From a virus, in IMG/VR virus record IMGVR_UViG_3300025086_000067, positions 1 through 42,359 of that record: a stretch of 42,359 bases of DNA; one strand, written 5' to 3'. Made by a program: the position numbers and the translations under genes. This document shows positions 4,614-42,359 of the stretch, in pieces. A model generated the notes under the pieces. The model saw only the letters and a program-made list of their open reading frames with translations. It ran no database searches and was not told the DNA's origin. Numbering within the stretch: position 1 is the stretch's first letter; each line of letters starts with the position of its first letter.

Positions 4614-4809
4614 TATTGGTAAAGACTACAAAAACGACGCTATGCACTATGCCGTGGGGCAAGAAGTGTATGGTGGTCATACTATCTGCGATATTATAGA
4701 GGAAGATGAAAAGTATTCTATTTATATTAAAAAGAATAAAGACGTATTACCTTGGAAGGATTTTAACAAGAATATGGCTGTATCTGTAGAGTATAATTTA
4801 CAATACTAA
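4588..4809 (+). CDS. Small conserved phage protein, function unknown
   Basis: The product has 73 residues and is translated in another frame over the last 26 bases of the preceding gene. It reads RKISIGKDYKNDAMHYAVGQ, then VYGGHTICDIIEEDEKYSIYIKK, then WKDFNKNMAVSVEYNLQY. That is a short beta-rich pattern with a conserved-looking end (VSVEYNLQY). The stop overlaps the co-chaperonin start (TAATG). No function can be assigned. The start at 4588 gives the fullest version; a later Met (residue 19) would remove the RKISIGKDY segment, which looks like part of the family. Confidence 0.6.
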   Translation: MSKLIRKISIGKDYKNDAMHYAVGQEVYGGHTICDIIEEDEKYSIYIKKNKDVLPWKDFNKNMAVSVEYNLQY

Positions 4810-19200: not shown

Positions 19201-22200
19201 TGCATATGGTGGCTGGACAAAGTGAAGCTAGTGATTATGCTAAATATTGTTGTGTGACTTGGGCTGGATCTACTAAAGTAGGGACAGAAAATACTTCTGG
19301 TTGGAGTTATCCCCCTCTTAAAACCTGGTTGACAGATTTTATTGATAGCGAAAACTACAATCCAAATCAAGAGATTGAAGTGCCTGGCGTTGGTGTGACA
19401 GGAAAATTCCACACAGCATTAAAAAACGCAGTGATAGATATATCTCCTTTAGTAGCTGAAAATGATGAATATAAATTTTACGACACTGATACTAGCGGAC
19501 AAAGAGTTACCGGTTGGGTTGGGCAAGAGCAAAGCGTTAAGAGACTTCTTAGTTTAGGTAACACTATATTTGAAAATCATGTTAACGGTTTAGAAGGAAT
19601 AGTTACTACAACTGAAGACCATTCCACAGGTCCTAGAAGATGGTTTAGTGGAATAACTGGAAACCCAACAGATCAAGGTGTTGGTGTTGATACTAATACG
19701 TATGCCAATGACGATGATGACATAGGTAGACATTTTATGCATTTATCGTTTTTTGCTCCTGGCCGAGATTTAGTGCCGGATACTTTCCCAGGTACCTTCA
19801 CATTGTTTGGTAACGATTCTGTTGGAAATAATTTACAAGGAATATGGGGAGGTGGACATTTTACCGGTACGAAAAACAACGATACATTTGGAGTTGGTGG
19901 CAACACAACACTTCAGCATAGATCACTTTGTTTAGAGGGTAATAATGATTTAAATGATGGCGCTTGGTTACCAGAAACCCCTGGTCCAGGCGTTGGATTC
20001 GGTTATGATTTAGATTACAGGGATTTACACGAAAGACAATGGGACCCAACTTTTAACTCACAGACAGATCCCGAAAATAAAATACGAGATTTTATAAGAA
20101 ATCTTCATGCTGGAGCCCAATTTAAATTTTCAACTGATCCAAATGATGAAATTTATACTATAAAAAAAGTAGTTGTAAAAAAATTATACAATCACACTTC
20201 TTGGAGAAAACCTTATAATAGATATAATGTAAATAATTCTATTGTTGGATCACCTAACGGAGGTTATGATATAGACAGAGCATATCAAGACGATGTTTAT
20301 ATAAGCGTTGAAGAAGCGGCTATTGAGTGGTTAGACACTTTAGATGATAATGGTGGTGGAGGAGATGCAGATAAAGAAACATTGTTAAAAAACAAAATAA
20401 AAGCTTTTGGTAGAGCTAGTAATAGAAGACTTTGTTACATAATAGAACTTGATAAAAATCCAACAGATCAAACTCATAATCCTTTAGCGTTAGCTGTATC
20501 TGCTGATTGGCAAGCTTCCGATTTTGCTAATATAGAATTTGTAGAACAAGTTCAGTCAGTTTTGCTTTCTGAATTAAATAAATTCCCAGCAATATGGGAG
20601 ATTAGCCCTAAGAAACAACAAGTAGATTTAGATATATATTATGAGGCTAGTAATAACATACCGGTAAAACTTAATAGCACTACAAACGAGTTGTTCGCAC
20701 CTATTGGGTGTAGGGTTGAAATACTCGACGGACCTGTTTCTGGGTCTTCTCGTTTAAAAGAATGGAAAGATGGTGCAACAGCTATATTTGAGCCTGGATT
20801 TCCTTTGTTAGCTGTTCCAGGTTCTTTAGAAGCAGATTACTCTGGCTCGTCTTTTAAATTTATTAGAGAAGATGGTAGCTTTACAATAGCACAAGCCGAA
20901 GAACAGGTTCTTAGTGGAGACGTAAATACAGTTGGATACAAGACGGAGTTTCTTTTTAGAGAAGATATCGGTGACAATGTACGTGTTGGATTACCTTATT
21001 ATAATTGTTTTTCTTTTAATAATGGGTTAGAATCTAATAGAATTAAAGATGATTTTAATGAAATGTATATTGGAAATGGAGTTAAAGCATCATCAACAAC
21101 ACAGAAAACTTACGAAGAAGAACGTAGATCACATGGTTTAATATACTCTGGGTTGTATAACTCAAGCTCGGGAATAAACGATTTAAATCAGTTTATAATG
21201 GCTGAGAAAATCACTAAAGATTTAAACCCTACATATGGTAGTATTCAAAAATTATTTCAAAGAAGAATTAGTTTAATAGCTTTCTGCGAAGATAGAGTTG
21301 TAAGTATAACATCAAACAAAGATGCGTTATATAACGCTGATGGAAACCCACAGTTAGTATCAACAAACCTTGTTTTAGGTGATGTAAATCCGTTTGTAGG
21401 AGATTACGGTATATCTAAAAATCCAGAATCGTTCGCGTCGGAATCTTACAGGGCTTATTTCACTGATAAGCAGAGAGGTGCTGTTTTAAGATTATCAAAA
21501 GATGGTTTAACACCTATATCTGATGCCGGAATGCACGATTGGTTTAGAGATAATCTACTTAATTATAGTGCTCTAATAGGAACATATGATAGTTATAAAC
21601 AAAATTATAACATAAGTCTTTCGCATGCTTTTGGGGAAAATATTATATACAATACTTATTTTGATTTAGGACAAGAGTCCACTAGTCAATTAAAAACCTT
21701 ACTAAATTACGTTGCAAATCCAACTGTTACTAGTGGTACTAATTTACAGTATGGTTATGAAAGAAAAAACGTGTTAAATGACAGTGAGTTCGTTTGGGGA
21801 CCACAAAATAGAGATCTGAATGCCGACGTAGTTGTTACTATGCATCCTGCTATCGCCACTGGAGAGCTTCAAGAATATGTTCCTCCTAGAGCTCCTGTAG
21901 CAGAAGTGTTAACAAATTTACCAACGCTTTTAGGTGGGTACACTGGTTCAGGATCGCAAATCACTGGTACTACCGCGGCTGATTTAATAACAGTTAACGG
22001 GCAATTAGGCGCGTACACAGTGCCAGATAACGCGGCGACAATTTTAGCGAATGATGTATACGATTATAATGGAAACATTATTAGCTCTGTGAGTGGTTTT
22101 GTTACCGATCCTAATAATCCAAATGCGGTTGGAGCATATACAGTCGCTGCTGTTGATGCGTCTGTAAGCGATGTAATAATACAACAAAACCAACAAAACT

Positions 22201-25200
22201 TTAATACACTCAACAGTGTAGGTGGTAGTGTTACTGGTGGCAACCCAGAAACTGACCTTCAAATCACTGGTTATACAGCGGTAACAAGTGCCACACAAAC
22301 AAGCGCTACTCAAGTAACAACCACCCCTTATGATGAGGTTGGAGCTGTTGCAACACCTTTTGAAACAGCACAGTGGGACAATTACCCGAACAATCCAGTC
22401 GGAACAGATATTCTTAAAACAGTTGCTATTTCTAGTTACTCAGGAAATATTTGGGGTCAAGGCATAGCATCGACTAGTGATAACTATTTAGATCCTAATG
22501 TTTATTCTGTTCCTAGAAGAATAATAAGTGGAGTTACTATAAATGAAAATCAAATTAATTCATTGAACAATGGTAGTAGTCAATTTCCACTAGACTATGC
22601 AAATAATTATGATCCTTCAGTTGAAAAAGGTTATGGTAATAACAACGGTTATCCTGCTCAAAGCGCCAACCATCTTAATCAGTTTTCGCAAGCTATCACT
22701 AGGAGCTCGGTTAGTAAAAATATTGTTTTTGATAGAGCGCCTCACGCTAATACATATTTAGAGTTTAGAGCTATTGGGCATGATGGCGCTAGTCATTTCG
22801 ATGACTATATAACTGATATTGGTTATGATAACGTGACTTATGCCAACTGGGAGGTAGCATACGCCGCTAACCCTGCTAATACACCTATGCCTGTTCGTCA
22901 TAGATCTGTTTTTAATGGTCAAGAAATTCACGTTCAAGTGAGGTTAAAGGTTTATCAAAGTGGATTAGGTTATAACCAGATTGGTGGATATTTTAGCGGT
23001 CATAACAATGTAAAGCCTAGAATACAATTACTTGATGGGGTGGGCGGCATTATACCAAATAATAAGTTTTGTTCTCCAACCTTAGGACATTCATCAAATC
23101 CTATTACTGGTACGTTGAGTGATGAACAATTTTTATACGAGAAAGATAATCCTTTCCCTAACAATGGTTTATCTGAAGTTGCAAACGACCCAGGGACTTT
23201 TAATAAGTGGGAGTGGGATGGGCTGCAACTAGGAAATGGTAACGTGGGATCTACAGTTAATTGCAATTGTAAAGATATTAGACGTTATCAATCAAATAGT
23301 GCGGTTGCATTTTCTTCAACTGGTGATTATATTGGTTATACTGAAACTAACTCTGTAAATACTAGTTTACCGTGGCACAACACAACTGTTGGGTTTTCAG
23401 GAGGTTCATCTGTAAATATGAATAACGTGCCTCATATGTTTGATCAAACAGCTATTGTTACTGTTGGTGCTAGATGGAAGTTTAGAGATCCAGTACAGCA
23501 AAACGGTGACGGATCTCCTAAAGCAGGTATAACAAATATTATAGAGAAACAAGTAGTTAACGATCTTATAATTAGAATCTCAAACGGGGCGCCCGTGGCT
23601 AGTGACCCAACACATTATAATTATAATAATAGTTGGGGGGAAAAACCTCTTAGAAACGCGCTTTGGGAAGTGGAGCGTGTGCACGTGACAAGCCTTTATG
23701 AGCCATATAGAGCTTCTAGAACTGAAACGCTACAAGGATACATTGACTATACAGGCCCAACTCTTTATGAAAATTTTACCGCATACCAACCACCATCACA
23801 ATTCGTAACATATATACCTGTATCAGGCTTTGAACAATACATCCCGCCTGAACCAGAAATTACAGAAATAAAAGAAGTGGAGGCGGTTCCACCTTTCCCA
23901 GTACCAGCTTGGGCAGAAGTACAGCACCAAACGTTTGGATGGACAATGCAAGGTCATGGTAATTACACTAATAGTTATTTTAGTAACTTAGGTACCAATC
24001 CTGGTCAATATGGACCTTCGTTTGGTGGAATGCAAATTATTGGGAAGAAAGCAGCTCCGGATCCTGCGGATTTACCAAGTAATCACCCTGATACCACGTA
24101 CACCGTTCCTAACAACTGGGAATACAACTCTTGGAATCAAGACAATACAGTTAGCGGTGCGTCTGGAAATCCTAGTGGTAACTTTAATTGGCCTTATGTT
24201 AGTGGTGATGATAACAATCCTAACACGTATACTATTGATCAGCATTTGTTTGTCCACACGCCTTTAGATAGTAATGGAGACAAAAGTGCTGTTTATATTA
24301 AATTTGATATAACTGCTGACTCATGGGTAGCTGGCGATTGGTATTTAGTTGATCTTGAATTTGACGAAACTTATGATGGCGGTGGTGGTTTAGGCGTGGC
24401 TGGTACAGGTGGTGACAACGGAAGCTGTCATATCACTCATATCGCTTCACAAAATTGGAATGGTACTGTAGGTATAGATATACACCCAGAGGGTGTTGGT
24501 CGATATTCAGGAAAAGCTAGCCTCGTACCTAAACATTCTCATGTCATGTTGCTCCCTAGAGTTAGAAATGAATATGGTAACACTGATGGTTCTGGTGACG
24601 GTAAAAATGTTATAAGAGCAATATTTCAAGCGGCACCCGATTCTTTAAGGCTTGATAATAATATTAATACACCTACTGAAAACGGTAATCAATTTGAGCT
24701 TTATCTTTATAATTTTATAAATAGCGCAAAACTTGAAACTGTTATTGTTAAAAAACTAGATTATGGTCTTACAGAAGGTGTTATTGGTGGTAGTGCTTTT
24801 AGTTGGGAGCATACTGTAGATATCTTAACCCACTCATTTACAAAAAGAAAAATTTATTGGAAAGATAATAAATTATGTTGGGATGTAACACAAGGTAATG
24901 ATTATAATTGGCTTCAACGGTTTGGAAACCCAACATATCAAGTTCCTTCATACCCACCACCACACCCGGGTGAGTATGGTTGGATTTTAAAATTTACTGT
25001 TGGACCAAACCCAGACACAGGAACTTTTAGTGGTGATGGTCTCAGGGGTTATGTAAATAATAATGAAACAAACTTAGGGCCATTAGGAACTTCATACGAT
25101 GGATTATATTTTAGTGATATACAAGACGAAGGTGATTACGAAATATTTTTCACAACAAATGGAGATGAAACGGACTGGTATATACATCATGATAATGGTG

Positions 25201-26540
25201 GAGGAGGTGGATTTGTTCCTTACGCTACAGGAAACATAGAGTCTACAGCAACAATGAACAGCGGAACTCCTCCAGCTAGTTTAGCAAATATGATTATGTT
25301 TTCGGCTGGAGACACAACGTCTGCTCTTTCGGATTTAACGTGTAGTATTAGTAATATATCTTTAAAAGATCAAACTTTAATATTTCAAGGTGGTTCTGCT
25401 GGTTCTTGGAATTTTGACGGTTGGGATAATTCTATAGCTCCATATATAATTTGGAATAGTAACTCTGGAGTAAATGGACTAATAGAGTTTAACGATTGTC
25501 CACTTGTTGATCCAAATTCAGGATCAATTTTAACAACTTTCCTTAACGCAAATCAATTTGTTGATAGAAACATAGATAGATTTGAAAGATTTGAAATAGA
25601 ATTTAATCACGGTATAACAGAGGGAATGTTAAAAATATACTACTTCAATAGTGAGGGGTATGGTTTTAGAATACCAGACATAGGCCCTTCAACACCTTCT
25701 CTTTACAAAACAACAGTTGAGGTTGGAGATGAAATATGGGATTGGGAAAATCCTGAGGGGCCAAATTATGCTCCAGAATTAAAAGAAACATTTGTTATAC
25801 AAGTAGACAACACGTACATGCTAGCTAATCCTTCAGAAAGTGTGAATGGTTGGATAGATAGTATTAGAATGACAAGGGTTTATAATATTGAAGAAGATGA
25901 GAATGGTGAAACTATACTTGATGAAAAAACAGTTACATTTAGCGAAGCTGTCAATGGTTGGACTAGTTTTAAAAGTTTTGTTCCAGAAAGTGGCGTTAGT
26001 TTGTCTAAAAAATACTTCACTATAGATAGTGGAGGTTTATTTCAACACTATGTTCCGTTGAAAAAATATTACCCAACTGATGGTAGTGCTAGTTATTTCG
26101 TCTCTTCTTCTTCTGATGACGCTGAGAACTACAACATGTTTTATGGAATATACAGTGAAAAAGGATCTAGTGTTAGAGTTATTTTAAACAACGAACCGTC
26201 AACGGTAAAAACTTTTAAAACGTTAAATTATGAGGGAACACAAGCTCAAGTTTTAAGACCTTCTTCTATAGGAAATATTACTATTAATAACGCGGCTGCT
26301 TGGCAAGCTGGTGGTAATATACAAGGTTGGTTTTGTTCAGATGTTAAAACTAATCTAGACATGGGTTCTGTTAAACAGTTTATTGAAAAAGAAGGAAAAT
26401 GGTTTAATTATATAAAAGGAAAAGATACTTTAAATGCGGTTACGGGTGATGCTGTTTTAGATACAAGCCTTTTCAGCGTACAAGGCATTGGAGAAAGCTC
26501 TGAAATATTTGTAGCGCCTGGTGTTAATGTTATTTTTTAA
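16251..26540 (+). CDS. Giant gp10-like stabilisation / tail protein
   Basis: The product has 3429 residues. The N-terminus (NNFTGGKMNKDLDERLMPKG, then YRDAMNVEVSTSEGSNVG) is the signature of the P22 gp10-like packaged-DNA stabilisation/tail family in marine phages, followed by beta-propeller-like repeats. Conserved parts continue at about 1158 (RHFMHLSFFAPGRDL), 1677 (FCEDRVVSITSNKDALYNAD) and 1725 (NPESFASESYRAYFTDKQRG). From about 1880 to 3200 comes a long Gly/Asn/Thr/Tyr-rich stretch of apparent beta-sandwich units that I do not recognise. The family-like C-terminus (NGWTSFKSFVPESGVSLSKK; GKWFNYIKGKDT) returns at about 3235. It likely closes the portal and displays receptor-binding parts. 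No signal peptide or coiled coil is seen. Confidence 0.72.
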   Translation: MPEIKNNFTGGKMNKDLDERLMPKGQYRDAMNVEVSTSEGSNVGTLQNILGNTRVDVTDTFTGVPSGFKCVGSIADEKSNKLYWFVSSYEKDAILEYNPQTKETIPVFVDLNAWNSKAALKFAGEIITGINIIDDLLLWTDNDSEPKKINIEECKKGTVDFNSHTQLEFERGSFNGMTLELLSPSNSANTFDFAISKPKKGLYFWYEKKQLEKLLQQDIVDGLVTNIRHYRNGEYIGLKQVRIFDNHRGMHVRLSYRISDGGWDPDNIATEIGQIPAEEDWHEGDIIFGENITLDMEERHITVIKPKPLKAPAVKINHTQPSENTNNIPNLFETTFPRFSYRYKYRDGEFSTFAPFTEPVFNPKFPKDTNTTSTGNVFYNKDNAYTTEEPYNKAMENSIHSIELTDFITEQTPEDVVEIDILYKQENSSIIYSVGTIRHADSAWHASSNHEGLGHDLGIGETGTTFGYAATGSYNKGKYTVTTENIYAALPENQLLRPWDNVPRRALAQEVTGNRVVYGNYLQNYDIGLLKPEVQVAYSDRNSLIGSFTTQGLPSVKSQRNYQVGVVYCDKYGRETPVFTSDKGAINIPWEKNDGLKNASRNLQLNPSVATNFPEWVDSLKFFVKETSNPYYNLAMERAWVSKATYELDNEDGHLWISFPSSDRNKITEEDYIVLKKKIGVGEEQVDFENKFKVIDIANEAPDAIKYRLVNYGTVSNTDSNAAAVSQQRVDALFDNNNERIDVETDTIRIDKSEWEDNFSTPLEQGMGVNTTIFDPKDLYISWRKLGTGSGLGVSSKKYRITGGTISASDYIMKLSTPITRIDADIAHLNGDSSTGNSGLDLHDDLVVQIERKELKDDENFSGSFFVKISKNQVTNFIEEGSDVNIKDNYIVSAKNKSWYWRDNIASVTDITISSATGYGLFNYNGFVSTITSFDSIQHTPNNSIGDVAGDTNSNGGFIGVTDYAAAWDGILGVYEPTFFIDGMHMVAGQSEASDYAKYCCVTWAGSTKVGTENTSGWSYPPLKTWLTDFIDSENYNPNQEIEVPGVGVTGKFHTALKNAVIDISPLVAENDEYKFYDTDTSGQRVTGWVGQEQSVKRLLSLGNTIFENHVNGLEGIVTTTEDHSTGPRRWFSGITGNPTDQGVGVDTNTYANDDDDIGRHFMHLSFFAPGRDLVPDTFPGTFTLFGNDSVGNNLQGIWGGGHFTGTKNNDTFGVGGNTTLQHRSLCLEGNNDLNDGAWLPETPGPGVGFGYDLDYRDLHERQWDPTFNSQTDPENKIRDFIRNLHAGAQFKFSTDPNDEIYTIKKVVVKKLYNHTSWRKPYNRYNVNNSIVGSPNGGYDIDRAYQDDVYISVEEAAIEWLDTLDDNGGGGDADKETLLKNKIKAFGRASNRRLCYIIELDKNPTDQTHNPLALAVSADWQASDFANIEFVEQVQSVLLSELNKFPAIWEISPKKQQVDLDIYYEASNNIPVKLNSTTNELFAPIGCRVEILDGPVSGSSRLKEWKDGATAIFEPGFPLLAVPGSLEADYSGSSFKFIREDGSFTIAQAEEQVLSGDVNTVGYKTEFLFREDIGDNVRVGLPYYNCFSFNNGLESNRIKDDFNEMYIGNGVKASSTTQKTYEEERRSHGLIYSGLYNSSSGINDLNQFIMAEKITKDLNPTYGSIQKLFQRRISLIAFCEDRVVSITSNKDALYNADGNPQLVSTNLVLGDVNPFVGDYGISKNPESFASESYRAYFTDKQRGAVLRLSKDGLTPISDAGMHDWFRDNLLNYSALIGTYDSYKQNYNISLSHAFGENIIYNTYFDLGQESTSQLKTLLNYVANPTVTSGTNLQYGYERKNVLNDSEFVWGPQNRDLNADVVVTMHPAIATGELQEYVPPRAPVAEVLTNLPTLLGGYTGSGSQITGTTAADLITVNGQLGAYTVPDNAATILANDVYDYNGNIISSVSGFVTDPNNPNAVGAYTVAAVDASVSDVIIQQNQQNFNTLNSVGGSVTGGNPETDLQITGYTAVTSATQTSATQVTTTPYDEVGAVATPFETAQWDNYPNNPVGTDILKTVAISSYSGNIWGQGIASTSDNYLDPNVYSVPRRIISGVTINENQINSLNNGSSQFPLDYANNYDPSVEKGYGNNNGYPAQSANHLNQFSQAITRSSVSKNIVFDRAPHANTYLEFRAIGHDGASHFDDYITDIGYDNVTYANWEVAYAANPANTPMPVRHRSVFNGQEIHVQVRLKVYQSGLGYNQIGGYFSGHNNVKPRIQLLDGVGGIIPNNKFCSPTLGHSSNPITGTLSDEQFLYEKDNPFPNNGLSEVANDPGTFNKWEWDGLQLGNGNVGSTVNCNCKDIRRYQSNSAVAFSSTGDYIGYTETNSVNTSLPWHNTTVGFSGGSSVNMNNVPHMFDQTAIVTVGARWKFRDPVQQNGDGSPKAGITNIIEKQVVNDLIIRISNGAPVASDPTHYNYNNSWGEKPLRNALWEVERVHVTSLYEPYRASRTETLQGYIDYTGPTLYENFTAYQPPSQFVTYIPVSGFEQYIPPEPEITEIKEVEAVPPFPVPAWAEVQHQTFGWTMQGHGNYTNSYFSNLGTNPGQYGPSFGGMQIIGKKAAPDPADLPSNHPDTTYTVPNNWEYNSWNQDNTVSGASGNPSGNFNWPYVSGDDNNPNTYTIDQHLFVHTPLDSNGDKSAVYIKFDITADSWVAGDWYLVDLEFDETYDGGGGLGVAGTGGDNGSCHITHIASQNWNGTVGIDIHPEGVGRYSGKASLVPKHSHVMLLPRVRNEYGNTDGSGDGKNVIRAIFQAAPDSLRLDNNINTPTENGNQFELYLYNFINSAKLETVIVKKLDYGLTEGVIGGSAFSWEHTVDILTHSFTKRKIYWKDNKLCWDVTQGNDYNWLQRFGNPTYQVPSYPPPHPGEYGWILKFTVGPNPDTGTFSGDGLRGYVNNNETNLGPLGTSYDGLYFSDIQDEGDYEIFFTTNGDETDWYIHHDNGGGGGFVPYATGNIESTATMNSGTPPASLANMIMFSAGDTTSALSDLTCSISNISLKDQTLIFQGGSAGSWNFDGWDNSIAPYIIWNSNSGVNGLIEFNDCPLVDPNSGSILTTFLNANQFVDRNIDRFERFEIEFNHGITEGMLKIYYFNSEGYGFRIPDIGPSTPSLYKTTVEVGDEIWDWENPEGPNYAPELKETFVIQVDNTYMLANPSESVNGWIDSIRMTRVYNIEEDENGETILDEKTVTFSEAVNGWTSFKSFVPESGVSLSKKYFTIDSGGLFQHYVPLKKYYPTDGSASYFVSSSSDDAENYNMFYGIYSEKGSSVRVILNNEPSTVKTFKTLNYEGTQAQVLRPSSIGNITINNAAAWQAGGNIQGWFCSDVKTNLDMGSVKQFIEKEGKWFNYIKGKDTLNAVTGDAVLDTSLFSVQGIGESSEIFVAPGVNVIF

Positions 26541-32119: not shown

Positions 32120-35100
32120 ATGGCAGATTACAAAGACGCTAATGGTGTAATTTATAGAGAAAATGATATTCGCGCTTGGGCTAGAAATCGAGGTGTAAGT
32201 TTTGAAGAGTATCTTGAAATCAAAGGACTGGCTTTCGACAAAATGGACTATGATGACGCTGGTTTTGCTGATAAAGTTATTAGTGTTGGTGCTAGTCTTG
32301 GTAAAGACGTGCTTGGCAAACTAGAGGGATTTGCCGACATTAAAGACGCGGCTATATTTGCCGCTACTACCGATGATGACGAAATGACTCCAGAGGCTAA
32401 AAAAATAGCTATGGATGCTATGAAAAAAGCTAACAGATGGAGTAGTGATCCATTTGAAAAAATGATTCAAGCTTTAGATGAAAAAACCTTAGAGTATGAC
32501 GAGGCTAGCATAACAGAGACTTTTAAAGAAGGTGATTATGCTGAGGGTGGTTTTAGAGCTGTTGAAGCTGGTATTGCAAGTTTACCATCAATATTAATGG
32601 CAGCAATGGGCGTACCTGGTTTGGCTGCTTTAGCTGTTACAACCGCTGGTAGTAAATTTGAAGAAGAATTTGAAGAAGACGCGTCAAGAGATGTTACATC
32701 TTTACTAGGAAATGCTGCTGGATCTGGTGTTATTGAAGCGGGGTTTGAGTTTGCTACTAGAGGTTTGTTAAAAAGAGCTGGTTTAATAAGTGGTTTGGGA
32801 GGCGAGGCTAACCAAAAGCTAGCTAAAGAAATAATTAAAGGTGGGGCTGGTAGTATAGTGAAAAACATAACTGGTGGGGTAATATCTGAAGGTGCATCTG
32901 AAGCGGCTACAGAGTTGACATCTACTTTGTGGGACCAAGTAACGCTAGGAAAGAAAGTTGATTGGGAAAAGAAGTGGTATGAAATCGCTGACGCTGGTAT
33001 TGTTGGTGGTTTAGTTGGTGGTGTTACAGGTGGTATTGGAGAGATAAATAAGAAATCACAAAAATCTAAAAATTTAGCATATTCAATATTAGCCGACGCT
33101 GATACTAAAGCGGAGATTGGTAGTTTACAAGAAAAATTATCAAGTTTAATAATGGATCAAAAGGGTACTAGAAAAAAGGCGGATCCTAAAGATGATGATG
33201 GAGAGTATGAAAAACTTCAAGATATGATCATGGAGGTTAGAGCTGATATAGTTGGTGCTAAAGAAAGAGCTTTGCAGGGGTTATCTGAAATGAATGGAGA
33301 GGAGTTTGATACTTATTTTGCAAATGTTAAAAAAGCAAGACCTTTAAACAAAATTGTAAAAGATAAGAAAAAATCCAAAGAAGCACAAGCCGCTGCGCAA
33401 AAAGAATTAGATGCCATAAATATTGAAAACAAAACAATAGTAGAAAACGCTAGTAATAGAAAGTTAGAGAAAAACCTAAAACAAGCCGAAGGTAGAGCTC
33501 GACAAAGAGGCGGTAAAGTTAAAGTTCACGAAACTCAAGAGCAGTACGTAGAAGCTGTAAGTGGAGTATCGGCTAAAAAAGTTAAAAACAAAGATGGTGA
33601 GCTAGATTACACTGATGAATTTAAAAAAGCGGCTAGACAACACAGGTGGAGTGATGGTAAAATACTAGATGGTGTTTCACATATAAATAAACAAACAGCT
33701 AAAAAACTAGGCTCAGTGTCAGTAGGTTCTCACGAAGTTCTTCACTCTATAATGGATAAGTATATTAGAAATGAAGATGGTACTGTAAAAGATGAAGGTA
33801 TAGAATTAATTGATGACATGCTAGACGGTATGTCTAAAAGTGATAGGGCTACTGTTCAAAAAAGAATAGATGATAACTATAGATTCAATAAAGACGGTAC
33901 TGAAAAAAGCAAAAAGGATTATTATGATGAATATTTAAACGTACTTCATGATGCTATTGTAAAGAAGAAAATTACTTACAATAAAAACTTTGATGCAATT
34001 GGTGGTAGATTTAGTGGTGTATTCCAAAGATTTGGTTATGGTAATATTGATTTATCTACGGGTAAAGGTCTTTTTAATCTTATAAGAACTTATACTAAAG
34101 CAATTGAAACTGGAGAAAGCACTGTTGATTTAGATAAAATTATAGAAGAATCAAAAGGCTTTGTTGTAACAAACAAAAAACAAGGTAGAAAATCAATCAA
34201 CTTAGGTTCTGAAAATGATGGCGTGCCTTTAAATGAAAAAATAGATCCACTAACTGAGGGTGCTAAAACAAAAGAAGACTTAATGAAAGGAGGTATAAAT
34301 TCTCCTTTCTCCAAAATATATCAAGGTATTTTAGACGGTAGTTTTGATAGGATTTTTGGTACTGTTAACAAGGATCAAAGACAAATACAAAGACAAGATC
34401 TAGCAGATAGATTTGCTGGTATGACAGAAGAAGGTGGTTATGATCCTGCGAAAACTCCTGAATTATCTAAATGGATGTTTGGTGGTAGTGGTATAGCTGG
34501 TAACATTGAATATACAAAAAGAAAAGCTAAAAAAGAATTAGCTATAAAATCTGAAAAAGCTAAAAGGGAAAAACGTATAGATGCTAAAAAACCTACTAAA
34601 GAAGGTGAAAAAGGGTTTGACATAACAGATGATGCTGGTTTAAGCCCAGAAGAGTTAATGATTAGAAAAGAAGAGCAAGCTAAGGAACTTGAAAAGAAGA
34701 AGGTAACTTTTGCTGCGTCATTAGGGTTGGGAGTTGAACTACAAAATAAAATAAAAGCAGCTGTTATAAAAACATTTGGTACAAAACTGCCAGCTGTAAC
34801 AGACGCAAAATATAGAAATGCTTTGTCAAAAGCTTTTAGAAACGAAATAGGTAAATCTATAGAAGAAATATTTGGTATTGATAAAACTTATGATGAATTT
34901 ATAGATAAATATTTTAAAGGTATAGTTTTTCCAAATATCTCCAATGCTAGATTAATACAGATGGAAAGGCTTTTACCTAAAGGTGAAAAAATATTTGTAG
35001 ACAAAAGAAGAATAACAAAAGTAAAAGAAGTAAGAGAATTACAAGAAAAAGGGTTAATAGCTAAAACAGTTAAACCAGCATCGGGACCAAATCTTATTCA

Positions 35101-38100
35101 AAAGAAAAAACTTAACATGAATAAGGTTAAAGCATTTTTTAATCCACCAGCAATAAACCCAAAAACAGGTGAGAAGAGTGGTTTAAGAGGTACTAGAAAA
35201 AGAGCATTAGCAGAGGCTTTAGCAGAAGAGTTGGCTCAAAACCAAACAGACGCAGTATTACAAAGTCCTGACGTAATGAATAAAGTTAAAGAGTTAAACA
35301 CTTTATTTGAATACGACGACGTAAACAACTACGCAGCAGAAGTTGCTAGGCAAATGGATAGAGGCGCTAGAAACTCTGAAAGCTTAGGTAGAGCCGCTAA
35401 ATTAGATGGTTTAAACACCGCTGACTTACGTTTAGTTCTTAATATGGATGCTGTTGAAATGGAAGACCAACATCCAAACACTTACAATGCGTTAAAAAAT
35501 GATTCTGCTGATAAATATGAGGGAAGACAAGGTTTTATTGATAATGATGGTTTTTTAGTAAGACTTACAAGAGGTATTACAAACCCTAAGGTTTTAAAAT
35601 TTATTAATGATAAGGGGTACATGTTACGTACAACAAAGAACAAGGTTAAAACATACAACGAAGACGGAGCAAAAAATCACGTAGATAGTTACAACATACC
35701 ATTACTTGGTTTTATACCTGCTTGGATGGGCGCTAGAGATATAGAAATGCAAAACTCAAAACGTAGCAAGCATATGTTTTTACATAGATCTGCCAAAATG
35801 GATAGTTCTAGAGGTGTTTTTGGACAGGATCTTACGCTGAGAGATCAAAATAGAGGTAAATGGTTTAGGGCTTTACAAGGTAAAATGGGTACTAATAAGT
35901 ACATGAGTAAAGCTACTAAAAAACTCTGGAAACAATTAAAAGAAATACAAGGTGATTTAGTTTTAATGGAATCTACTATGACTGAGCCTCAAAGTGTGTT
36001 GAGACGTGTTCACGAGGTACAAGCAATGAAGAAAACCGCTAAAGAAAAAGCAGCTATACTTAGAAAAGAATTTAATCCAAAATCTTTATTAGCCGCTCAG
36101 TTATTGTTTAAAGCCTACAACTCTAGCATACAAGACTGGGTTAATTCTCAAGTAGAAGCCAATAAGATGACTAGAGAACAAGCTATTGAGTATGTTATAC
36201 GGGACAAACAAATGAATACTAATTTTAACAAAGGCGAAAGAGCTTTAGCAGCTTTAACCTCTGTTTATTTAGTTGATGGCGTTCAAAAAGTAACAAAACA
36301 AAAAGGAGAACACGTTGTTGATTCAGCATCCGTTTCAGCTGCAACTGTTATTAGTATATATAACGATACTTTTTTACAAGATTCAGACACTATATTAAAA
36401 GGATTTGAACAATCACTTTTACCAAAAGAATTAGCGGATAGCTTAGATGATTTAGGTGGTCGTAACAGTCAACTTGGTAACTATAGGTTTTTGATGAATC
36501 CTGATATAGGTAAAAACACATATGATTTAGCTACAGGTAAAACAATGTACCAATTAGGAGTAGAACAACATGGTAAAGATCTGGTTAAGTCTATGGAAAA
36601 GATTAATGATACCAGTAGAGCTAGTGAAAATTTAGGTAAGTTTTACAAAGCAGAATCTTTTAAACTTGATCCTAATACAAAACCGAAAGGTATTAGTGTT
36701 TTTGATTTTGATGAAACAGCTGGTATTAGTGACAATGTTATTATTGCAACCAAAAATGGTGTTACAGAAGTAATAGAATCTGCTGACTGGCCTTTAGTTG
36801 GCGACGCTATGGTTAAAGATGGCTGGGAGATGGATTTTTCAGATTTCAATAAAGTTACAAATGGAAGACCTGGACCATTAATGCAGAAGTTAAAAAACCA
36901 AATCAAAAAGTATGGCAACAAAGCTGTGTTTATATTAACAGCTAGAGCTTCACAAAGCCAAAAAGCAATACATGAATATTTAAAAAGTGAGGGCGTTGAT
37001 TTACCGCTAGAAAATATAACAGGTTTAGGAAATAGTACTGGTGAAGCTAAAGCTGATTGGATGATTGATAAATTAGCTGAGGGTTATAATGATTTTTATT
37101 TTGTTGATGATGCTATGCCAAACGTTAAAGCTGTTGATGATCTATTAAGTCAATTTGATGTTAAATCAAAATCTGTGCAAGCGGTAACTAGAAATAGCGA
37201 AAGTCTTGGTAGACAAGTTGATGAGATGATAGAGACTAACGAAGGGATTAAAGTTGGTGCTGTTATAGATGAGGCGGAAGCAAGAACTCGTGGGGCTAAA
37301 AAAGGAAAAGGCGTTGGGGCTAAATTCTTTAACACGCCTGGCTCTAATGATTTTATGGGTTTAATGTACACAATAGCCAACGCAAAAGGTAAACTTGGTG
37401 AAAATCAAATAGCATTTTTTGAAGAAAATTTATACAAACCTTACAGAAGAGGTGTTGATAGAATAAATAGATTAAAACAAGGTATATCTAATAATTATAA
37501 AACCTTATTGAAATCAATACCTGATGCGGCTGGTAAATTAAAAAAGACGGTACCTGATACTAACTTTACTTATGACACTGCAGTAAGAGTTTATTTGTTT
37601 GATCAAGCTGGGCATGAAATACCTGGTTTAAGCGCGGAAAATAAAGCTAAATTAATAGAAGCTGTGAAAGCAGATCAAGGACTAATTGATTTAGCTAGTG
37701 GCGTTGCTGGTATTGTTAATAGTCCAGAACTTTATATTAAACCCGATCAAAATTGGCTTGGTGATACTATATTGTCTGATTTAGACAGTATAACTAACAA
37801 CGTGGGTAGAAAACAACACATACAAGAATTCATTGAAAATAGAAAGTTAATTTTTGGAGAATGGAAAAACGGTAAATTATCTGGCCCGATGATGAATAAG
37901 TTAGAAGCTCTTTATGGTCCTGATTACGTTGAGGCGCTAAACGATATGATGTGGCGTATGGAAAATGGGAATGCAAGACCAAGTGGTTCTAACGCTCAGG
38001 TTAACAAATGGATGAATTGGCTTACTAATTCTATTGGTGCCATTATGTTTTTTAACACAAGATCCGCGTTGCTACAAACTTTATCAACAGCTAACTTTAT

Positions 38101-39292
38101 AAACTGGGGAGATAACAATCCTATAAAAGCAGCAGCTGCATTTGCAAATCAAAAACAGTTCTGGAAAGATTTTACAACTATATTTAACTCTGATTTTCTT
38201 AAACAAAGAAGAGGAGGTTTAAAACTTGATGTTAACGAAGCTGCTTTAGCCAAAGCTATAAATCAAGGTGGTAAAAGTAAAGTTAAAGCTGCTGTAGATT
38301 ATTTGTTAAGAATTGGGTTTTTACCTACGCAAATGGCTGATAGTTTTGCTATTGCTGCTGGTGGCGCTGCGTTTTTAAGAAATAGAGCCGAAACATATAT
38401 TAAACAGGGTATGTCTAGGGCTGAAGCTGAAACAAAAGCGTTTCAAGATATGGTAGATGCTTCTGAGCCAGTTCAGCAATCATCAGATCCATCACTCATA
38501 TCTAAAGAACAAGCTAGTATTTTAGGTAGAATAGTTTTAGCATTTCAAAACGTTACAATGCAATATACTAGACGTATGAAAAAATCTGTTATTGATTTAG
38601 CAAAAGGAAGAGGTGACGTTAAAACAAATATATCTAGAATCGTTTATTATGGAGCTGTTCAAAATTTTGTATTTAATGCTCTTCAATCTGCTTTGTTTGC
38701 TATAGCTTTTGATGACGAAGAAGATAAGAAAACGTTAGCGAGAAGAGATAGGGTTGTAAACGGTATGGCTGACTCTGTTTTACGAGGTTTAGGTATACCT
38801 GGGGCAATATTTGCAACTGGTAAAAATGCTATTATAGAATACGCAAAACAAAATAAAAAAGGTTGGAGTGGAGATCAAACCTACACCTTGTTACAATTAT
38901 TAAATATTTCACCACCAATTGGAAGTAAAGCTAGAAAGTTCTATAGTTCTACGCAGACAGAAAAATGGAATAAAAAAATAATTCCAGAAATGTCCATGTG
39001 GGATATAAGCAACCCAAGATATCAATCTATTGGTAACGCTGTTGAAGGTATAACAAATGTTCCTATGGGTAGAACTGTTAATAAAATAAATAATGTTAAA
39101 CAGGCTTTAGATTCCGATCATCAAACATGGCAAAGAATAGCTATGATGTTAGGTTGGAACAGATGGGATGTTGGCGTGAAAGATAGTGATGTATTAAAAA
39201 TAAAAGAAGAAGTAAAGCATAATCAAAAAACTAATAAAAAATCTAGTGGTTATAAAAAACCTCAATTTTCAAAACCTAAATTTGGGAACTAG
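32120..39292 (+). CDS. Giant multi-domain ejection-type virion protein (metallopeptidase-like and HAD-like domains)
   Basis: The product has 2390 residues. Residues 1-45 are an N-terminal helical tag. Ala/Gly-rich hydrophobic stretches lie at about 148-175 and 290-305. A peptidase-like region has SVGSHEVLHSIMDKY at about 535-549 (HExxH). A HAD-family domain spans about 1510-1680, with DFDET (1529-1533), ILTAR (about 1604), Lys in GEAKADWM, and the acidic pair FVDDAMPN (about 1661). The C-terminal 600 residues include hydrophobic helices at about 1970-1995 (NSIGAIMFFNTRSALLQTLS) and 2175-2197. The motif R-x-S-x-x-L-G occurs at residues 690, 1084, 1500 and 1691, at apparent domain junctions. 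It is likely injected into the cell; no virion RNA polymerase motif is seen. Confidence 0.7.
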   Translation: MADYKDANGVIYRENDIRAWARNRGVSFEEYLEIKGLAFDKMDYDDAGFADKVISVGASLGKDVLGKLEGFADIKDAAIFAATTDDDEMTPEAKKIAMDAMKKANRWSSDPFEKMIQALDEKTLEYDEASITETFKEGDYAEGGFRAVEAGIASLPSILMAAMGVPGLAALAVTTAGSKFEEEFEEDASRDVTSLLGNAAGSGVIEAGFEFATRGLLKRAGLISGLGGEANQKLAKEIIKGGAGSIVKNITGGVISEGASEAATELTSTLWDQVTLGKKVDWEKKWYEIADAGIVGGLVGGVTGGIGEINKKSQKSKNLAYSILADADTKAEIGSLQEKLSSLIMDQKGTRKKADPKDDDGEYEKLQDMIMEVRADIVGAKERALQGLSEMNGEEFDTYFANVKKARPLNKIVKDKKKSKEAQAAAQKELDAINIENKTIVENASNRKLEKNLKQAEGRARQRGGKVKVHETQEQYVEAVSGVSAKKVKNKDGELDYTDEFKKAARQHRWSDGKILDGVSHINKQTAKKLGSVSVGSHEVLHSIMDKYIRNEDGTVKDEGIELIDDMLDGMSKSDRATVQKRIDDNYRFNKDGTEKSKKDYYDEYLNVLHDAIVKKKITYNKNFDAIGGRFSGVFQRFGYGNIDLSTGKGLFNLIRTYTKAIETGESTVDLDKIIEESKGFVVTNKKQGRKSINLGSENDGVPLNEKIDPLTEGAKTKEDLMKGGINSPFSKIYQGILDGSFDRIFGTVNKDQRQIQRQDLADRFAGMTEEGGYDPAKTPELSKWMFGGSGIAGNIEYTKRKAKKELAIKSEKAKREKRIDAKKPTKEGEKGFDITDDAGLSPEELMIRKEEQAKELEKKKVTFAASLGLGVELQNKIKAAVIKTFGTKLPAVTDAKYRNALSKAFRNEIGKSIEEIFGIDKTYDEFIDKYFKGIVFPNISNARLIQMERLLPKGEKIFVDKRRITKVKEVRELQEKGLIAKTVKPASGPNLIQKKKLNMNKVKAFFNPPAINPKTGEKSGLRGTRKRALAEALAEELAQNQTDAVLQSPDVMNKVKELNTLFEYDDVNNYAAEVARQMDRGARNSESLGRAAKLDGLNTADLRLVLNMDAVEMEDQHPNTYNALKNDSADKYEGRQGFIDNDGFLVRLTRGITNPKVLKFINDKGYMLRTTKNKVKTYNEDGAKNHVDSYNIPLLGFIPAWMGARDIEMQNSKRSKHMFLHRSAKMDSSRGVFGQDLTLRDQNRGKWFRALQGKMGTNKYMSKATKKLWKQLKEIQGDLVLMESTMTEPQSVLRRVHEVQAMKKTAKEKAAILRKEFNPKSLLAAQLLFKAYNSSIQDWVNSQVEANKMTREQAIEYVIRDKQMNTNFNKGERALAALTSVYLVDGVQKVTKQKGEHVVDSASVSAATVISIYNDTFLQDSDTILKGFEQSLLPKELADSLDDLGGRNSQLGNYRFLMNPDIGKNTYDLATGKTMYQLGVEQHGKDLVKSMEKINDTSRASENLGKFYKAESFKLDPNTKPKGISVFDFDETAGISDNVIIATKNGVTEVIESADWPLVGDAMVKDGWEMDFSDFNKVTNGRPGPLMQKLKNQIKKYGNKAVFILTARASQSQKAIHEYLKSEGVDLPLENITGLGNSTGEAKADWMIDKLAEGYNDFYFVDDAMPNVKAVDDLLSQFDVKSKSVQAVTRNSESLGRQVDEMIETNEGIKVGAVIDEAEARTRGAKKGKGVGAKFFNTPGSNDFMGLMYTIANAKGKLGENQIAFFEENLYKPYRRGVDRINRLKQGISNNYKTLLKSIPDAAGKLKKTVPDTNFTYDTAVRVYLFDQAGHEIPGLSAENKAKLIEAVKADQGLIDLASGVAGIVNSPELYIKPDQNWLGDTILSDLDSITNNVGRKQHIQEFIENRKLIFGEWKNGKLSGPMMNKLEALYGPDYVEALNDMMWRMENGNARPSGSNAQVNKWMNWLTNSIGAIMFFNTRSALLQTLSTANFINWGDNNPIKAAAAFANQKQFWKDFTTIFNSDFLKQRRGGLKLDVNEAALAKAINQGGKSKVKAAVDYLLRIGFLPTQMADSFAIAAGGAAFLRNRAETYIKQGMSRAEAETKAFQDMVDASEPVQQSSDPSLISKEQASILGRIVLAFQNVTMQYTRRMKKSVIDLAKGRGDVKTNISRIVYYGAVQNFVFNALQSALFAIAFDDEEDKKTLARRDRVVNGMADSVLRGLGIPGAIFATGKNAIIEYAKQNKKGWSGDQTYTLLQLLNISPPIGSKARKFYSSTQTEKWNKKIIPEMSMWDISNPRYQSIGNAVEGITNVPMGRTVNKINNVKQALDSDHQTWQRIAMMLGWNRWDVGVKDSDVLKIKEEVKHNQKTNKKSSGYKKPQFSKPKFGN

Positions 39293-39330: not shown

Positions 39331-40413
39331 ATGGTGAAAAGACTAATAATATTGCTACTACTTATATCTAATGTAACAGTAGCACAAACATATGGGATTG
39401 AGGATGTTAAGAAGATGTTGAAGTACTCGACGTTCTACGCCGCTGTAAATGGTGGTACGTCGCTTTCTGATGTTAATATTTTTTCTGTAGACAATGGTTT
39501 ATCTACAAAGACTATTTCAACTCCTTATGATTATAATTTTACCATAGGATTACGTAAGATAGCAAGATTTGGATATGAGAATAAAGCCCAAACGTTTTAT
39601 GATGGAACGGAATCTAATTACAGTGATGCGGCTACTGTAGGTAAAGTAAGGGGAGTTGAATACATGTTTGAAGTAGACTACAAAAGACAAGAAGGTGTTG
39701 ACTATATGGATCAACATCACTTTATTAGGTTTAGCTCTGATGACGGTTGTCCAGATGAACTATGTGTAAATTTCTTTGCTTTAAAAGTTGAATACTTAGA
39801 AGATGGATTTGCAGACATCAAGTATTTTGAGGCGTCCGAGAGATATAGGCATCGTAAAGGTAGAAATCTATCCTGGAATATTGGGATGACACACCGTTTA
39901 GCGGAACCATATGGTTACAACCCTTTAGATGAGTGGATGTTAGAAAATGGTAACATACATTATACTTACTTAGCGCTTCAGGAGGGTTATGAGGTAGATG
40001 TGTATAGCAACACCTACGTAAACCCTGATGGAGAGGTTGTCGCAACTAGCGCTGAGGTTTGGGAGGCGGTTGTTATACCAGAAGTATTAGCAGACTACAC
40101 AGATAAAAAAAGGAACGAATTAAAAAAAGTAATTCAACACTCTTTAGTTATGGGTTTTGATTATTATAAATATAGCAAAAGCACCTGGTTACATGTTTGG
40201 GCAAGCTTAATGCCTTGGCACTATGATGATGGTAGTGAGTTTTCATACCATAATTATATAGAAGACGATCAATGGTACGATTATTCTGGGGGATTAATTT
40301 ATGGAATAAAAGTAAATAAACAACTAGGTTATTTTGTAGAGGGTAAATACAATAAGTATTGGAATCGTGAGTGGTATGATTTTAAATTAGGAATGAATTA
40401 CACAATTTTTTAG
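39331..40413 (+). CDS. Phage-encoded outer-membrane beta-barrel candidate
   Basis: The product has 360 residues. A signal peptide (MVKRLIILLLLISNVTVAQ) with a likely cut after Ala-Gln or Ala is followed by a helical segment, then alternating strands: YDYNFTIGLRKIARFGYEN, VEYMFEVDYKRQEGVDYMD, FFALKVEYLEDGFADIKYFE, LSWNIGMTHRLAEPYGY. The last strands are SGGLIYGIKVNKQLGYFVEG and WYDFKLGMNYTIF, ending in Phe as outer-membrane proteins do for BAM recognition. Two Cys (DGCPDELC) may form a disulfide. The protein would be exported and inserted in the outer membrane. Receptor masking, superinfection exclusion or a lysis role are possible; the family occurs in marine Bacteroidota phages but no function is known to me. 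Confidence 0.65.
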   Translation: MVKRLIILLLLISNVTVAQTYGIEDVKKMLKYSTFYAAVNGGTSLSDVNIFSVDNGLSTKTISTPYDYNFTIGLRKIARFGYENKAQTFYDGTESNYSDAATVGKVRGVEYMFEVDYKRQEGVDYMDQHHFIRFSSDDGCPDELCVNFFALKVEYLEDGFADIKYFEASERYRHRKGRNLSWNIGMTHRLAEPYGYNPLDEWMLENGNIHYTYLALQEGYEVDVYSNTYVNPDGEVVATSAEVWEAVVIPEVLADYTDKKRNELKKVIQHSLVMGFDYYKYSKSTWLHVWASLMPWHYDDGSEFSYHNYIEDDQWYDYSGGLIYGIKVNKQLGYFVEGKYNKYWNREWYDFKLGMNYTIF

Positions 40414-40414
40414 A

Positions 40415-40696
40415 ATGGCAAAAGAATTAAATGAAGACACGTCTTTTAAGTTAAGTATAAAGACACTAATAGGCATAGGGTTTGCAATGGCAACTTTAAT
40501 AAGTATGTATTTTATGTTACAAGCAGATATTGCTGAAGCAAAGGAACTACCTATAATTCCACCAGACGAAGTTACTAGAATGGAATTTCAAATGAAAGAT
40601 CAAATGATCCGTAATACTATTATGGATACGCAAAAAGACGTGCAAGAGATTAAAAAATCTATAGAAAAAATAGAGGATAAATTATATAACAGGTAA
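40415..40696 (+). CDS. Inner-membrane anchored coiled-coil protein
   Basis: The product has 93 residues. A short polar N-terminus is followed by a single hydrophobic span at about 14-34 (IKTLIGIGFAMATLISMYFM) and a long charged coiled coil to the end (MKDQMIRNTIMDTQKDVQEI; IEKIEDKLYNR). With the N-terminus inside, the coil would project into the periplasm. That layout resembles inner-membrane spanins and XhlA-type proteins. It lies between an outer-membrane barrel candidate and an exported thioredoxin-fold protein and is coupled to both (1-base gap; TAATG overlap), which suggests a joint envelope function. Confidence 0.6.
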   Translation: MAKELNEDTSFKLSIKTLIGIGFAMATLISMYFMLQADIAEAKELPIIPPDEVTRMEFQMKDQMIRNTIMDTQKDVQEIKKSIEKIEDKLYNR

Positions 40697-41025
40697 TGAA
40701 AAGGTTATTAGTTATTTTATTAATATTAATATCAAGCAGTGTTAATGCTCAAATAAAAGTTGAGCAGTTTAATGCTGGTTGGAATAGTGCTAATGACGTT
40801 CCTTGGGTTATGGATCTTGAAGACGTTAAAACCTCTGGCTATATAGATATAGCTAAAGATACAGAGGCTCAAGCAAAACATAAAATAGCTGTTGTACCTA
40901 CAATTATAATATTTAAAGACGGTGAGGAAGTTGCTAGGTTCCAAGCTGATCTTAGTTTTAAAATGCTAGCAACAAAAGAAGAAGTACAAGACGAAATTAG
41001 CAATCAATTAATGAGTGACTTTTAA
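40696..41025 (+). CDS. Exported thioredoxin-fold protein without cysteines
   Basis: The product has 109 residues. A signal peptide (MKRLLVILLILISSSVNAQ) is followed by a compact thioredoxin-like pattern: KVEQFNAGWNSANDVPWVMD where the CxxC loop would be, a strand YIDIAKDTEAQAKHKI, and VVPTIIIFKDGEEVARFQA with the cis-Pro, strand and turn of thioredoxins. The protein has no Cys, so it cannot act as a redox enzyme and would instead be a binding or scaffold version in the periplasm. It is the second of three exported proteins in this cluster and starts inside the previous stop (TAATG). Confidence 0.65.
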   Translation: MKRLLVILLILISSSVNAQIKVEQFNAGWNSANDVPWVMDLEDVKTSGYIDIAKDTEAQAKHKIAVVPTIIIFKDGEEVARFQADLSFKMLATKEEVQDEISNQLMSDF

Positions 41026-41027
41026 TT

Positions 41028-41309
41028 ATGGCATATAACAATAGAAGTGTTGGACCACTTAAAATTTCAGAAGCATCTTACAATAAACAAAACCGTAAGA
41101 TGAGAAAAGAAAACCCTGGTATGGGAAAAAAACTAACTAGTGGAACAAACCCACGTAGAATAAGTTTTGCTTGTAGATTTGGTAATATGCAAGGAGACAT
41201 GAAAGACAAAAATGGAACGCCAAGCAAATTAGCTAAAGCTTTAAAAAAATGGGGTTTTGGTAGCAAAGAGGCTGCTAGAAACTTTTGTAGAAAACATAAA
41301 AAATCATAG
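41028..41309 (+). CDS. Small basic conserved phage protein
   Basis: The product has 93 residues with a strong positive charge. The C-terminal half has the recurring phage pattern RRISFACRFGNMQGDMKDKN, GTPSKLAKALKKWGFGSKEA, ARNFCRKHKKS. The N-terminal half is Lys/Asn/Arg-rich. There is no signal peptide, so unlike its upstream neighbours it should stay in the cytoplasm or virion. DNA or RNA binding is a guess from charge; the family function is unknown to me. Confidence 0.6.
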   Translation: MAYNNRSVGPLKISEASYNKQNRKMRKENPGMGKKLTSGTNPRRISFACRFGNMQGDMKDKNGTPSKLAKALKKWGFGSKEAARNFCRKHKKS

Positions 41310-41311
41310 TA

Positions 41312-41575
41312 ATGAGCAAAGATAAAAAACTAAAAGAAATAGCGGGTGAACTAGAGAACGCTAGCGAAATGCATGCTGGTCAAGCTAAAAAAATTAAATC
41401 TATGTTAAAAAAATCAGGTCCGTTTAAAATGAAATCGCCTTTAAAAGGTAAAAGAGGATTGTGGGATAATATACACGCTAAGAGAAAAAGAATTAAAGCT
41501 GGTTCTGGAGAGAAAATGAGAAAACCAGGTGATAAAGGCGCACCTTCAGCTAAAGACTTAAGAGACTCACAATAG
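41312..41575 (+). CDS. Small basic protein with GPFKMKSP and GLWDNIHAKRKRI motifs
   Basis: The product has 87 residues. A helical N-terminus (KLKEIAGELENASEMHAGQA) leads to KKSGPFKMKSPLKGKRG, the motif shared with the 192-329 gene, then GLWDNIHAKRKRIKAGSGEK and a Lys/Gly/Pro-rich tail. The segment GLWDNIHAKRKRIKAGSGEK is familiar from small proteins of marine phages. A virion-associated or nucleic-acid-binding role is possible. It starts 2 bases after the previous stop and is followed immediately by the exported gene at 41576. Confidence 0.62.
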   Translation: MSKDKKLKEIAGELENASEMHAGQAKKIKSMLKKSGPFKMKSPLKGKRGLWDNIHAKRKRIKAGSGEKMRKPGDKGAPSAKDLRDSQ

Positions 41576-42359
41576 ATGAAAAAACTACTACTTATATTAT
41601 TATTACCATTTACGGTATTTAGTCAAGGCCCACCTAACTGTGTGCCTACAACTATTATTATTAACCTTGATCAATATCAAGGTGAAACCTCTTGGGATAT
41701 AAAAGATACTAATGGAGTTGTGATTGCGGATGGTAATGGTTATTGGTCAGAACCTCAATATGGCATTGTTATAGAACAAAGATGCTTACCTCCTGTTCCT
41801 TTAACCTTTACAATATATGATTCGTATGGTGATGGTTTAAACGGATCAATGTGGGGTGGTTTAGATGGATCTTATTACGTAGTACAGTGCTATGATACAT
41901 TAATTCACGGAACTGTCCCTAACTTCTTGTACGATACCACCCATGTCTTACCATCTGCACCTTGTCCACCAATATTTGGTTGTATGGATTCTTCTTATGT
42001 AGAATTTAATCCTAGAGCAGATACAAGTGATGGCTCGTGCTCTACCTTAGTGGTTTTTGGCTGTACAGACTCATTAGCATATAACTATGATTCTATAGCT
42101 AACACAATGTCTTTAGTTCCTGCTTGTGATTATATACTAACACTAACAGATTTAGTTGGTGATGGTTGGGCGGCATCAAACTTAGAGGTAACACAAGGAG
42201 ACAGCGTTTGGAATTTTACATTAGACACGGCTGCTTACTCACAAGATTATATTATAAACTTAAAAGCACCCGAACCGGTTTCATTTAAGTTTTCAATAAC
42301 ACAACAGGCTTTTCAATCTGCAGCTCACTGTGGATTTAAATTAACAAACCCATTAGGTA
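41576..42359 (+). CDS. Secreted Bacteroidota-type adhesin-like protein, truncated by the window end
   Basis: The frame runs open to the last base (261 codons, no stop). It begins directly after the previous TAG. A signal peptide (MKKLLLILLLPFTVFSQ) is followed by TFTIYDSYGDGLNGSMWGG, the DSYGDGxNG module of secreted Bacteroidota proteins, then two related modules: GCMDSSYVEFNPRADTSDGS ending in Cys, and GCTDSLAYNYDSIANT ending ACDY. A second DGDGW-like unit (TLTDLVGDGWAASNLEV) follows. Cys are frequent, as expected for an exported protein. It is probably displayed outside the cell or delivered by the phage to the host surface. The C-terminus, which would show a sorting signal, lies beyond the window. 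Confidence 0.72.
   Translation, partial: MKKLLLILLLPFTVFSQGPPNCVPTTIIINLDQYQGETSWDIKDTNGVVIADGNGYWSEPQYGIVIEQRCLPPVPLTFTIYDSYGDGLNGSMWGGLDGSYYVVQCYDTLIHGTVPNFLYDTTHVLPSAPCPPIFGCMDSSYVEFNPRADTSDGSCSTLVVFGCTDSLAYNYDSIANTMSLVPACDYILTLTDLVGDGWAASNLEVTQGDSVWNFTLDTAAYSQDYIINLKAPEPVSFKFSITQQAFQSAAHCGFKLTNPLG

Follow-up and report, generated by a model that had tools for sequence, protein, structure and literature searches.

A four-gene set of predicted envelope proteins, including a candidate T9SS cargo, in uncultured phages

Phages are usually viewed as using host export for lysis or for single exclusion proteins only. Lambda Lom, T5 Llp and phi80 Cor are phage exclusion proteins put in the host outer membrane, each acting alone, and two-component spanins of the Rz/Rz1 type combine an inner-membrane coil with an outer-membrane partner, encoded close to the holin genes. 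In the SprB-SprF and PorP-SprF systems a cargo gene lies beside an outer-membrane barrel gene, and SprF serves type B T9SS cargo. Phage-encoded T9SS cargo, thought to be exported by the host machinery, has been described in Cryophage (PMC7468147) and in BACON/crAss-type contigs (PMC6949934), where host T9SS sorting domains are found on phage genes. Prophages of Porphyromonas gingivalis phages encode exported proteins, of function not known, that follow the Q-rule (PMC10367356), by which, in Bacteroidetes, Gln begins the cleaved protein after the signal peptidase cut (PMC5837995, PMC10653852).

A locus is described here in which a candidate T9SS cargo (g6) whose relatives also carry such sorting domains is tied to three conserved predicted envelope proteins (g1, g2 and g3) across phage lineages, whereas the cargo of Cryophage and of the BACON/crAss-type contigs consists of single variable enzymes or domains. 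Its exported proteins appear adapted to the Bacteroidota signal peptidase I, as are those of the P. gingivalis phages, for which no four-gene module is described. As in the spanins, a predicted inner-membrane coil and a predicted outer-membrane partner are encoded close to holin genes, but the outer-membrane partner is a predicted 360-aa barrel and a periplasmic protein and the T9SS cargo are present in addition. The cargo gene g6 can lie beside the barrel gene g1 as in SprB-SprF and PorP-SprF, although no sequence kinship of g1 to these proteins was found and the sorting-domain type differs. Like Lom, Llp and Cor, the module would place a phage protein in the host outer membrane; no family match was seen for the module. 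A literature search found no description of this four-gene module. In contrast to the usual view of phage export, hundreds of uncultured phage contigs keep together a fixed set of proteins predicted to lie in the inner membrane, the periplasm and the outer membrane and including a T9SS-tagged one.

Layout of the locus and its predicted proteins

The window, that is, the whole stretch of DNA analysed, is a 42,359-base virus record whose last 3 kb (39331-42359) contain six tightly packed co-directional genes. The coordinates and the close packing by short gaps or TAATG overlap given in a preliminary description of this DNA were borne out by the window sequence, with a 1-base gap between g1 and g2, a TAATG overlap between g2 and g3, 2-base gaps between g3 and g4 and between g4 and g5, and a spacing of 0 between g5 and g6. 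These genes, and two holin-type genes at the window start, are the following:

g1, 39331..40413, + strand: exported, predicted 12-strand outer-membrane beta-barrel, 360 aa, C-terminal Phe; core member
g2, 40415..40696, + strand: one-span inner-membrane protein with C-terminal coiled coil (predicted), 93 aa; core member
g3, 40696..41025, + strand: exported thioredoxin-fold protein (predicted), NxxN in place of CxxC, C-terminal Phe, 109 aa; core member
g4, 41028..41309, + strand: small basic cytoplasmic protein, DUF6321 (PF19846, 2.7e-9); variable passenger
g5, 41312..41575, + strand: small basic cytoplasmic protein, phrog_16028 (2.7e-20); variable passenger
g6, 41576..42359, + strand: exported GCTD-repeat protein (predicted), cut by the window end without a stop; core member
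Two-span protein, 753-980, + strand: holin-type gene at the window start, 75 aa; not a core member
GTA_holin_3TM, 982-1368, + strand: PF11351, 25.8 bits (cut-off 24.8); not a core member

The portal and terminase of the window virus match those of elemo/Panino-type flavobacterial podoviruses, the portal being 43-53% identical to those of Flavobacterium phage elemo, Maribacter phage Panino and MW202828. Several other genes of this elemo-like podovirus deserve mention. A phage GroES-like co-chaperonin gene (4809-5399; phrog_13932, 5.8e-19) adjoins the terminase gene, and elemo, Panino and MW202828 also carry GroES and GroEL genes. The gene at 16251-26540 encodes a structural protein of 3,429 aa whose C-terminal domain is of the crAss-type muzzle kind (PF25729), and immediately upstream of the module (32120-39292) lies the gene of a 2,390-aa late protein with the HAD-like stretch VFDFDETAG, which found no match in Pfam and PHROG and is swapped for other genes in some module-bearing loci.

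Signal peptides were scored by hydropathy with a cleavage-motif check in 31 window genes, and a Sec-type N-terminus followed by a small-x-small|Gln site was found in g1, g3 and g6 alone. The three signal peptides reported previously are thus present, but they had been said to end in AQ or SQ; under the Q-rule, cleavage leaves A or S as the last residue of the peptide and Gln as the start of the mature protein, so that the former wording straddles the cleavage point. A codon comparison with four relatives gave low dN/dS values for g1 (0.05-0.07), g2 (0.02-0.12) and g3 (0.05-0.23), which shows that these are real genes under strong purifying selection.

The signal peptide cleavage site of the window copy of g1 is VTVA|Q, with a Q-rule motif in 229 of 251 g1 relatives, C-terminal Phe in 192 of 244 and a lipobox-like motif in only about 30%. 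An AlphaFold2 model built on a more diverse alignment contains 12 long strands at moderate confidence (pLDDT 75.2, pTM 0.69) and a 75-residue insert (192-266) between strands 7 and 8. Its Foldseek/VIA matches are outer-membrane barrels, including NanC (E 1.7e-6) and Tsx (best Z 11.2, 4.8 A over 205 residues), and CymA is also among the nearest structural barrels. These matches are generic (Z ~10, 6-10% identity) and the assignment of g1 to a specific known porin was rejected; no family was matched in Pfam, PHROG or NCBIfam. Among viral structures the best match is to A0A516LKJ4 (E 1.6e-22), an entry that carries no protein name. On the basis of the signal peptide and the modelled transmembrane barrel fold, g1 is predicted to be an outer-membrane beta-barrel.

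The g2 protein has a single hydrophobic span (residues 17-35) followed by a heptad pattern (V76, I79, I83, I86, L90) and matched no known family. Lys residues on the N-side and acidic residues past the span indicate that it is probably oriented N-in/C-out. This layout is like that of an i-spanin (N-in span plus periplasmic coiled coil), with a short coil and a topology read from these residues only.

A profile of the g3 family matched PDB thioredoxins with an E value of 3.8e-9, the single g3 sequence reaching 8.8e-4 against PF00085, under the family cut-off. Fold and cis-Pro motif are common to thioredoxin (PF00085) and g3, but g3 differs in being exported and in having NxxN for CxxC, a shortened active-site helix and a fixed C-terminal Phe, present on nearly all complete copies. 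Asn replaces the first catalytic Cys in 220 of 222 homologues and the last in 214 of 222; the alignment is ambiguous around the active-site helix, where g3 is about 5 residues shorter, and the absence of CxxC is unaffected by this. A redox role for g3 was rejected because CxxC is absent. A Q-rule motif is present in 194 of 222 relatives. The g3 N-termini are of two kinds (e.g. L005:9366-9725 and L183:6482-6838), a short Lys-rich signal peptide and a longer acidic/aromatic lead, which share the same hydrophobic stretch and A-x-G-Q site.

The signal peptide of the window copy of g6 ends at VFS|Q, and a Q-rule motif was found in 146 of 176 relatives. Complete homologues have a median length of 780 aa and 5-29 GCxD repeats, and terminate in a T9SS sorting domain, either full or shortened, whereas the window copy stops before any C-terminal domain. 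The g6 proteins of L084 and L085 end in TIGR04183 (T9SS type A; 2.5e-7 and 1.3e-13, respectively), and this domain was detected on 23 of 58 sampled g6 C-termini (best 2.5e-15), the other 35 failing to reach it at E 0.01. Classified by motif, complete g6 copies comprise 106 with type A-like tails and 70 with short tails, the short form being motif-like only; 26 complete regular-expression matches, mostly a structural protein with GCxD motifs, were excluded from these counts. The sorting domain of the relatives, which the preliminary description had missed, accounts for how a surface protein could exit the cell, and the combination of Sec signal peptide and C-terminal sorting domain makes the g6 proteins of relatives candidate T9SS cargo. 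A near-invariant Cys-rich stretch (YCC...WD..C......C) lies ahead of the T9SS tail in g6 relatives (e.g. L084:7989-9953).

The proteins proposed before the present analysis agree with these data: a barrel candidate ending in Phe (g1: signal peptide, C-terminal Phe and predicted barrel fold), a one-span membrane coiled-coil protein (g2: span and heptads), an exported thioredoxin-fold protein (g3: profile match and Q-rule signal peptide) and a GCTD-module secreted protein (g6: signal peptide VFS|Q). The corresponding topologies, namely inner-membrane coil, periplasmic pseudo-thioredoxin, outer-membrane barrel and surface protein, also hold as predictions.

Co-occurrence, distribution and exchange of the four genes

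Four scans plus a genome scan with g1 yielded 253 distinct loci (IMG/VR and MAG), of which 228 contain g2, 222 g3 and 200 the g6 family, with the next family in 113. When only loci with enough flank are considered, g2 and g3 are present in 158 of 158 and g6 in 107 of 107, although these loci are related to one another and the counts are not independent. All genes lie on one strand, in the orders g1 g2 g3 g6 (102 loci), g6 g1 g2 g3 (54) or g2 g3 g6 g1 (17), plus variants. A g3-seeded scan concurs, with g2 in 79 of 79 loci, g1 in 69 and g6 in 64, and the loci without g1 end where g1 could lie. Conserved co-occurrence in relatives, which had been set as a check on the original proposal, was therefore clearly observed. 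Neither g4 nor g5 has a signal peptide, and both were dropped as module members, the DUF6321-type family being present in 94 of 253 loci and the g5-related small-protein family in 61 of 253. As judged from the sequences, that g1, g2, g3 and g6 act together as one module is the firm result of this analysis.

At least 520 relatives of g1, uncultured and mostly marine, were found in IMG/VR, whereas two different queries against 50,697 phage records found none. The earlier statement that phages rarely encode such sets thus stands for deposited phages and fails for uncultured, mostly marine ones. Among 84,980 species genomes g1 had four matches, all of them in MAGs, and an origin of these genes from the host was rejected on this ground. 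Three of the four MAGs are labelled as non-Bacteroidota (Nitrosopelagicus, Maricaulis) and the L084 contig carries phage genes; the matches in 'bacterial' or 'archaeal' MAGs (L084-L087) are likely mis-binned phage contigs.

The module-bearing viruses are diverse. Compared with that of the window, the portal is 65-88% identical in group A, 33-35% in group A' and only 21-25% in group B, where it is closest to those of crAss-like and other Bacteroidota phages, and a third module-bearing group has a T4-like TerL 55% identical to that of Flavobacterium phage immuto and 57% to that of a Microcystis phage. In each virus group, the closest named phages mostly infect Bacteroidota (elemo/Panino, crAss-like, immuto), with one Microcystis phage equally close to the T4-like TerL. 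In the g1 tree (50 rows), well-supported branches require at least 5 changes for group B, and sister pairs join the groups, as in L281(A)/L283(B) and L263(A)/L256(B). Divergence of g1 correlates with that of g3 (r 0.74) and of the g6 C-terminus (r 0.67); for g2 the correlation is weaker (r 0.41). Tree and correlated divergence point to horizontal exchange, largely as a unit, and support repeated movement of the module between elemo-like and crAss-like phages. When the complete genomes of elemoC, Panino and MW202828 were searched with g1, g2 and g3 profiles, no match was obtained, and the lack of the module in these three relatives and in the 50,697 phage records indicates that it is accessory and not core lysis machinery.

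Possible roles of the module

The reading preferred here, to which about even confidence is given, is that g1, g2, g3 and g6 form an envelope module of Bacteroidota phages for surface display via host Sec and T9SS. Late in infection, Sec would carry g6 across the inner membrane and the T9SS of the host would take it through the outer one, and it would then be displayed on the cell surface or released there. The outer-membrane g1, the periplasmic g3 and the inner-membrane g2 may support g6 by docking, chaperoning or anchoring. Conserved g1-g3 together with a g6 variable in length and repeat number fit an apparatus plus its cargo, and T9SS export is supported by the nearest relatives, which mostly infect Bacteroidota, the phylum with T9SS. 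The most likely purpose is to mask receptors or remodel the surface, given that the module is accessory, late and mobile: the infected-cell surface would be altered so that progeny or rival phages fail to adsorb to the cell or to debris from it. Adhesion or aggregation ranks second. Several points stand against surface display: the window copy of g6 stops before any C-terminal domain, 35 of 58 sampled g6 tails fall short of TIGR04183 and the short form is motif-like only, g1 showed no sequence kinship to the PorP/SprF partners of T9SS, the strong constraint on g1 is unlike that of an arms-race surface barrel, and the holin neighbours are also compatible with a role in lysis.

Lysis or egress is the main rival, possible but less likely than surface display and on the whole rather improbable. 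In this case g2 would bridge the envelope via g3 to g1 and rupture or fuse the outer membrane after holin and endolysin have acted, replacing spanins, with g6 as an added surface factor. Of the 107 loci with 7.5 kb downstream, 78 have a holin (PF11351), two-span, M15 peptidase or DUF5675 gene, and such genes often stand between those of the module; g2 has the i-spanin-like layout. Homologues of the holin genes of the window start lie directly after g3 or g6 in L079, L158 and L361, and relatives of these genes can also lie between module genes; if the contig is circularly permuted, the window holin genes would be placed right after g6. However, no small o-spanin lipoprotein is found, g1 being a 360-aa barrel in which lipobox-like motifs are infrequent, the periplasmic part of g2 is short (about 55 aa), and the T9SS-tagged g6 of every locus is left unexplained. 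The spanin replacement suggested earlier is also weakened by the close relatives elemo, Panino and MW202828, which live without the module and so do not need it to lyse such hosts.

The position of g6 directly upstream of g1 in 64 loci, where a barrel gene adjoins a cargo gene, would suit a module that assists or commandeers T9SS export, in which g1 would be to g6 what SprF is to SprB, a dedicated partner in the outer membrane. This explanation is judged distinctly unlikely, because the g6 tails are type A-like and not type B, and because the candidate identity of g1 as PorP/SprF was rejected (probability 2% in a profile comparison with four PorP/SprF sequences; no PF11751 match). Very unlikely is an aid to nutrition or signalling, with g1 as an uptake channel and g6 as a surface binding protein feeding the infected cell: the nearest structural barrels include the small-molecule channels Tsx, NanC and CymA, but only as the generic matches described above, and a late position beside holins is poor timing for feeding.

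Returning to surface display, a bolder extension, held tentatively and with low confidence, is a dedicated trans-envelope machine common to unrelated phage lineages, which would couple the inner membrane (g2) via a repurposed NxxN thioredoxin (g3) to the barrel g1 and control T9SS delivery of g6. If a phage protein is indeed displayed on infected Bacteroidota, these phages would reshape the cell surface of major polysaccharide degraders of the ocean while infecting them. The way in which Bacteroidota phages cope with a T9SS-coated outer membrane also becomes directly testable.

The module was also considered as an anti-phage defence system, which was rejected as no PADLOC match was obtained. 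Frequent neighbours of the module are a PAP2-type phosphatase (43 loci; e.g. L100:12466-12993) and a small SNase-like protein (56 loci; e.g. L302:10975-11343).
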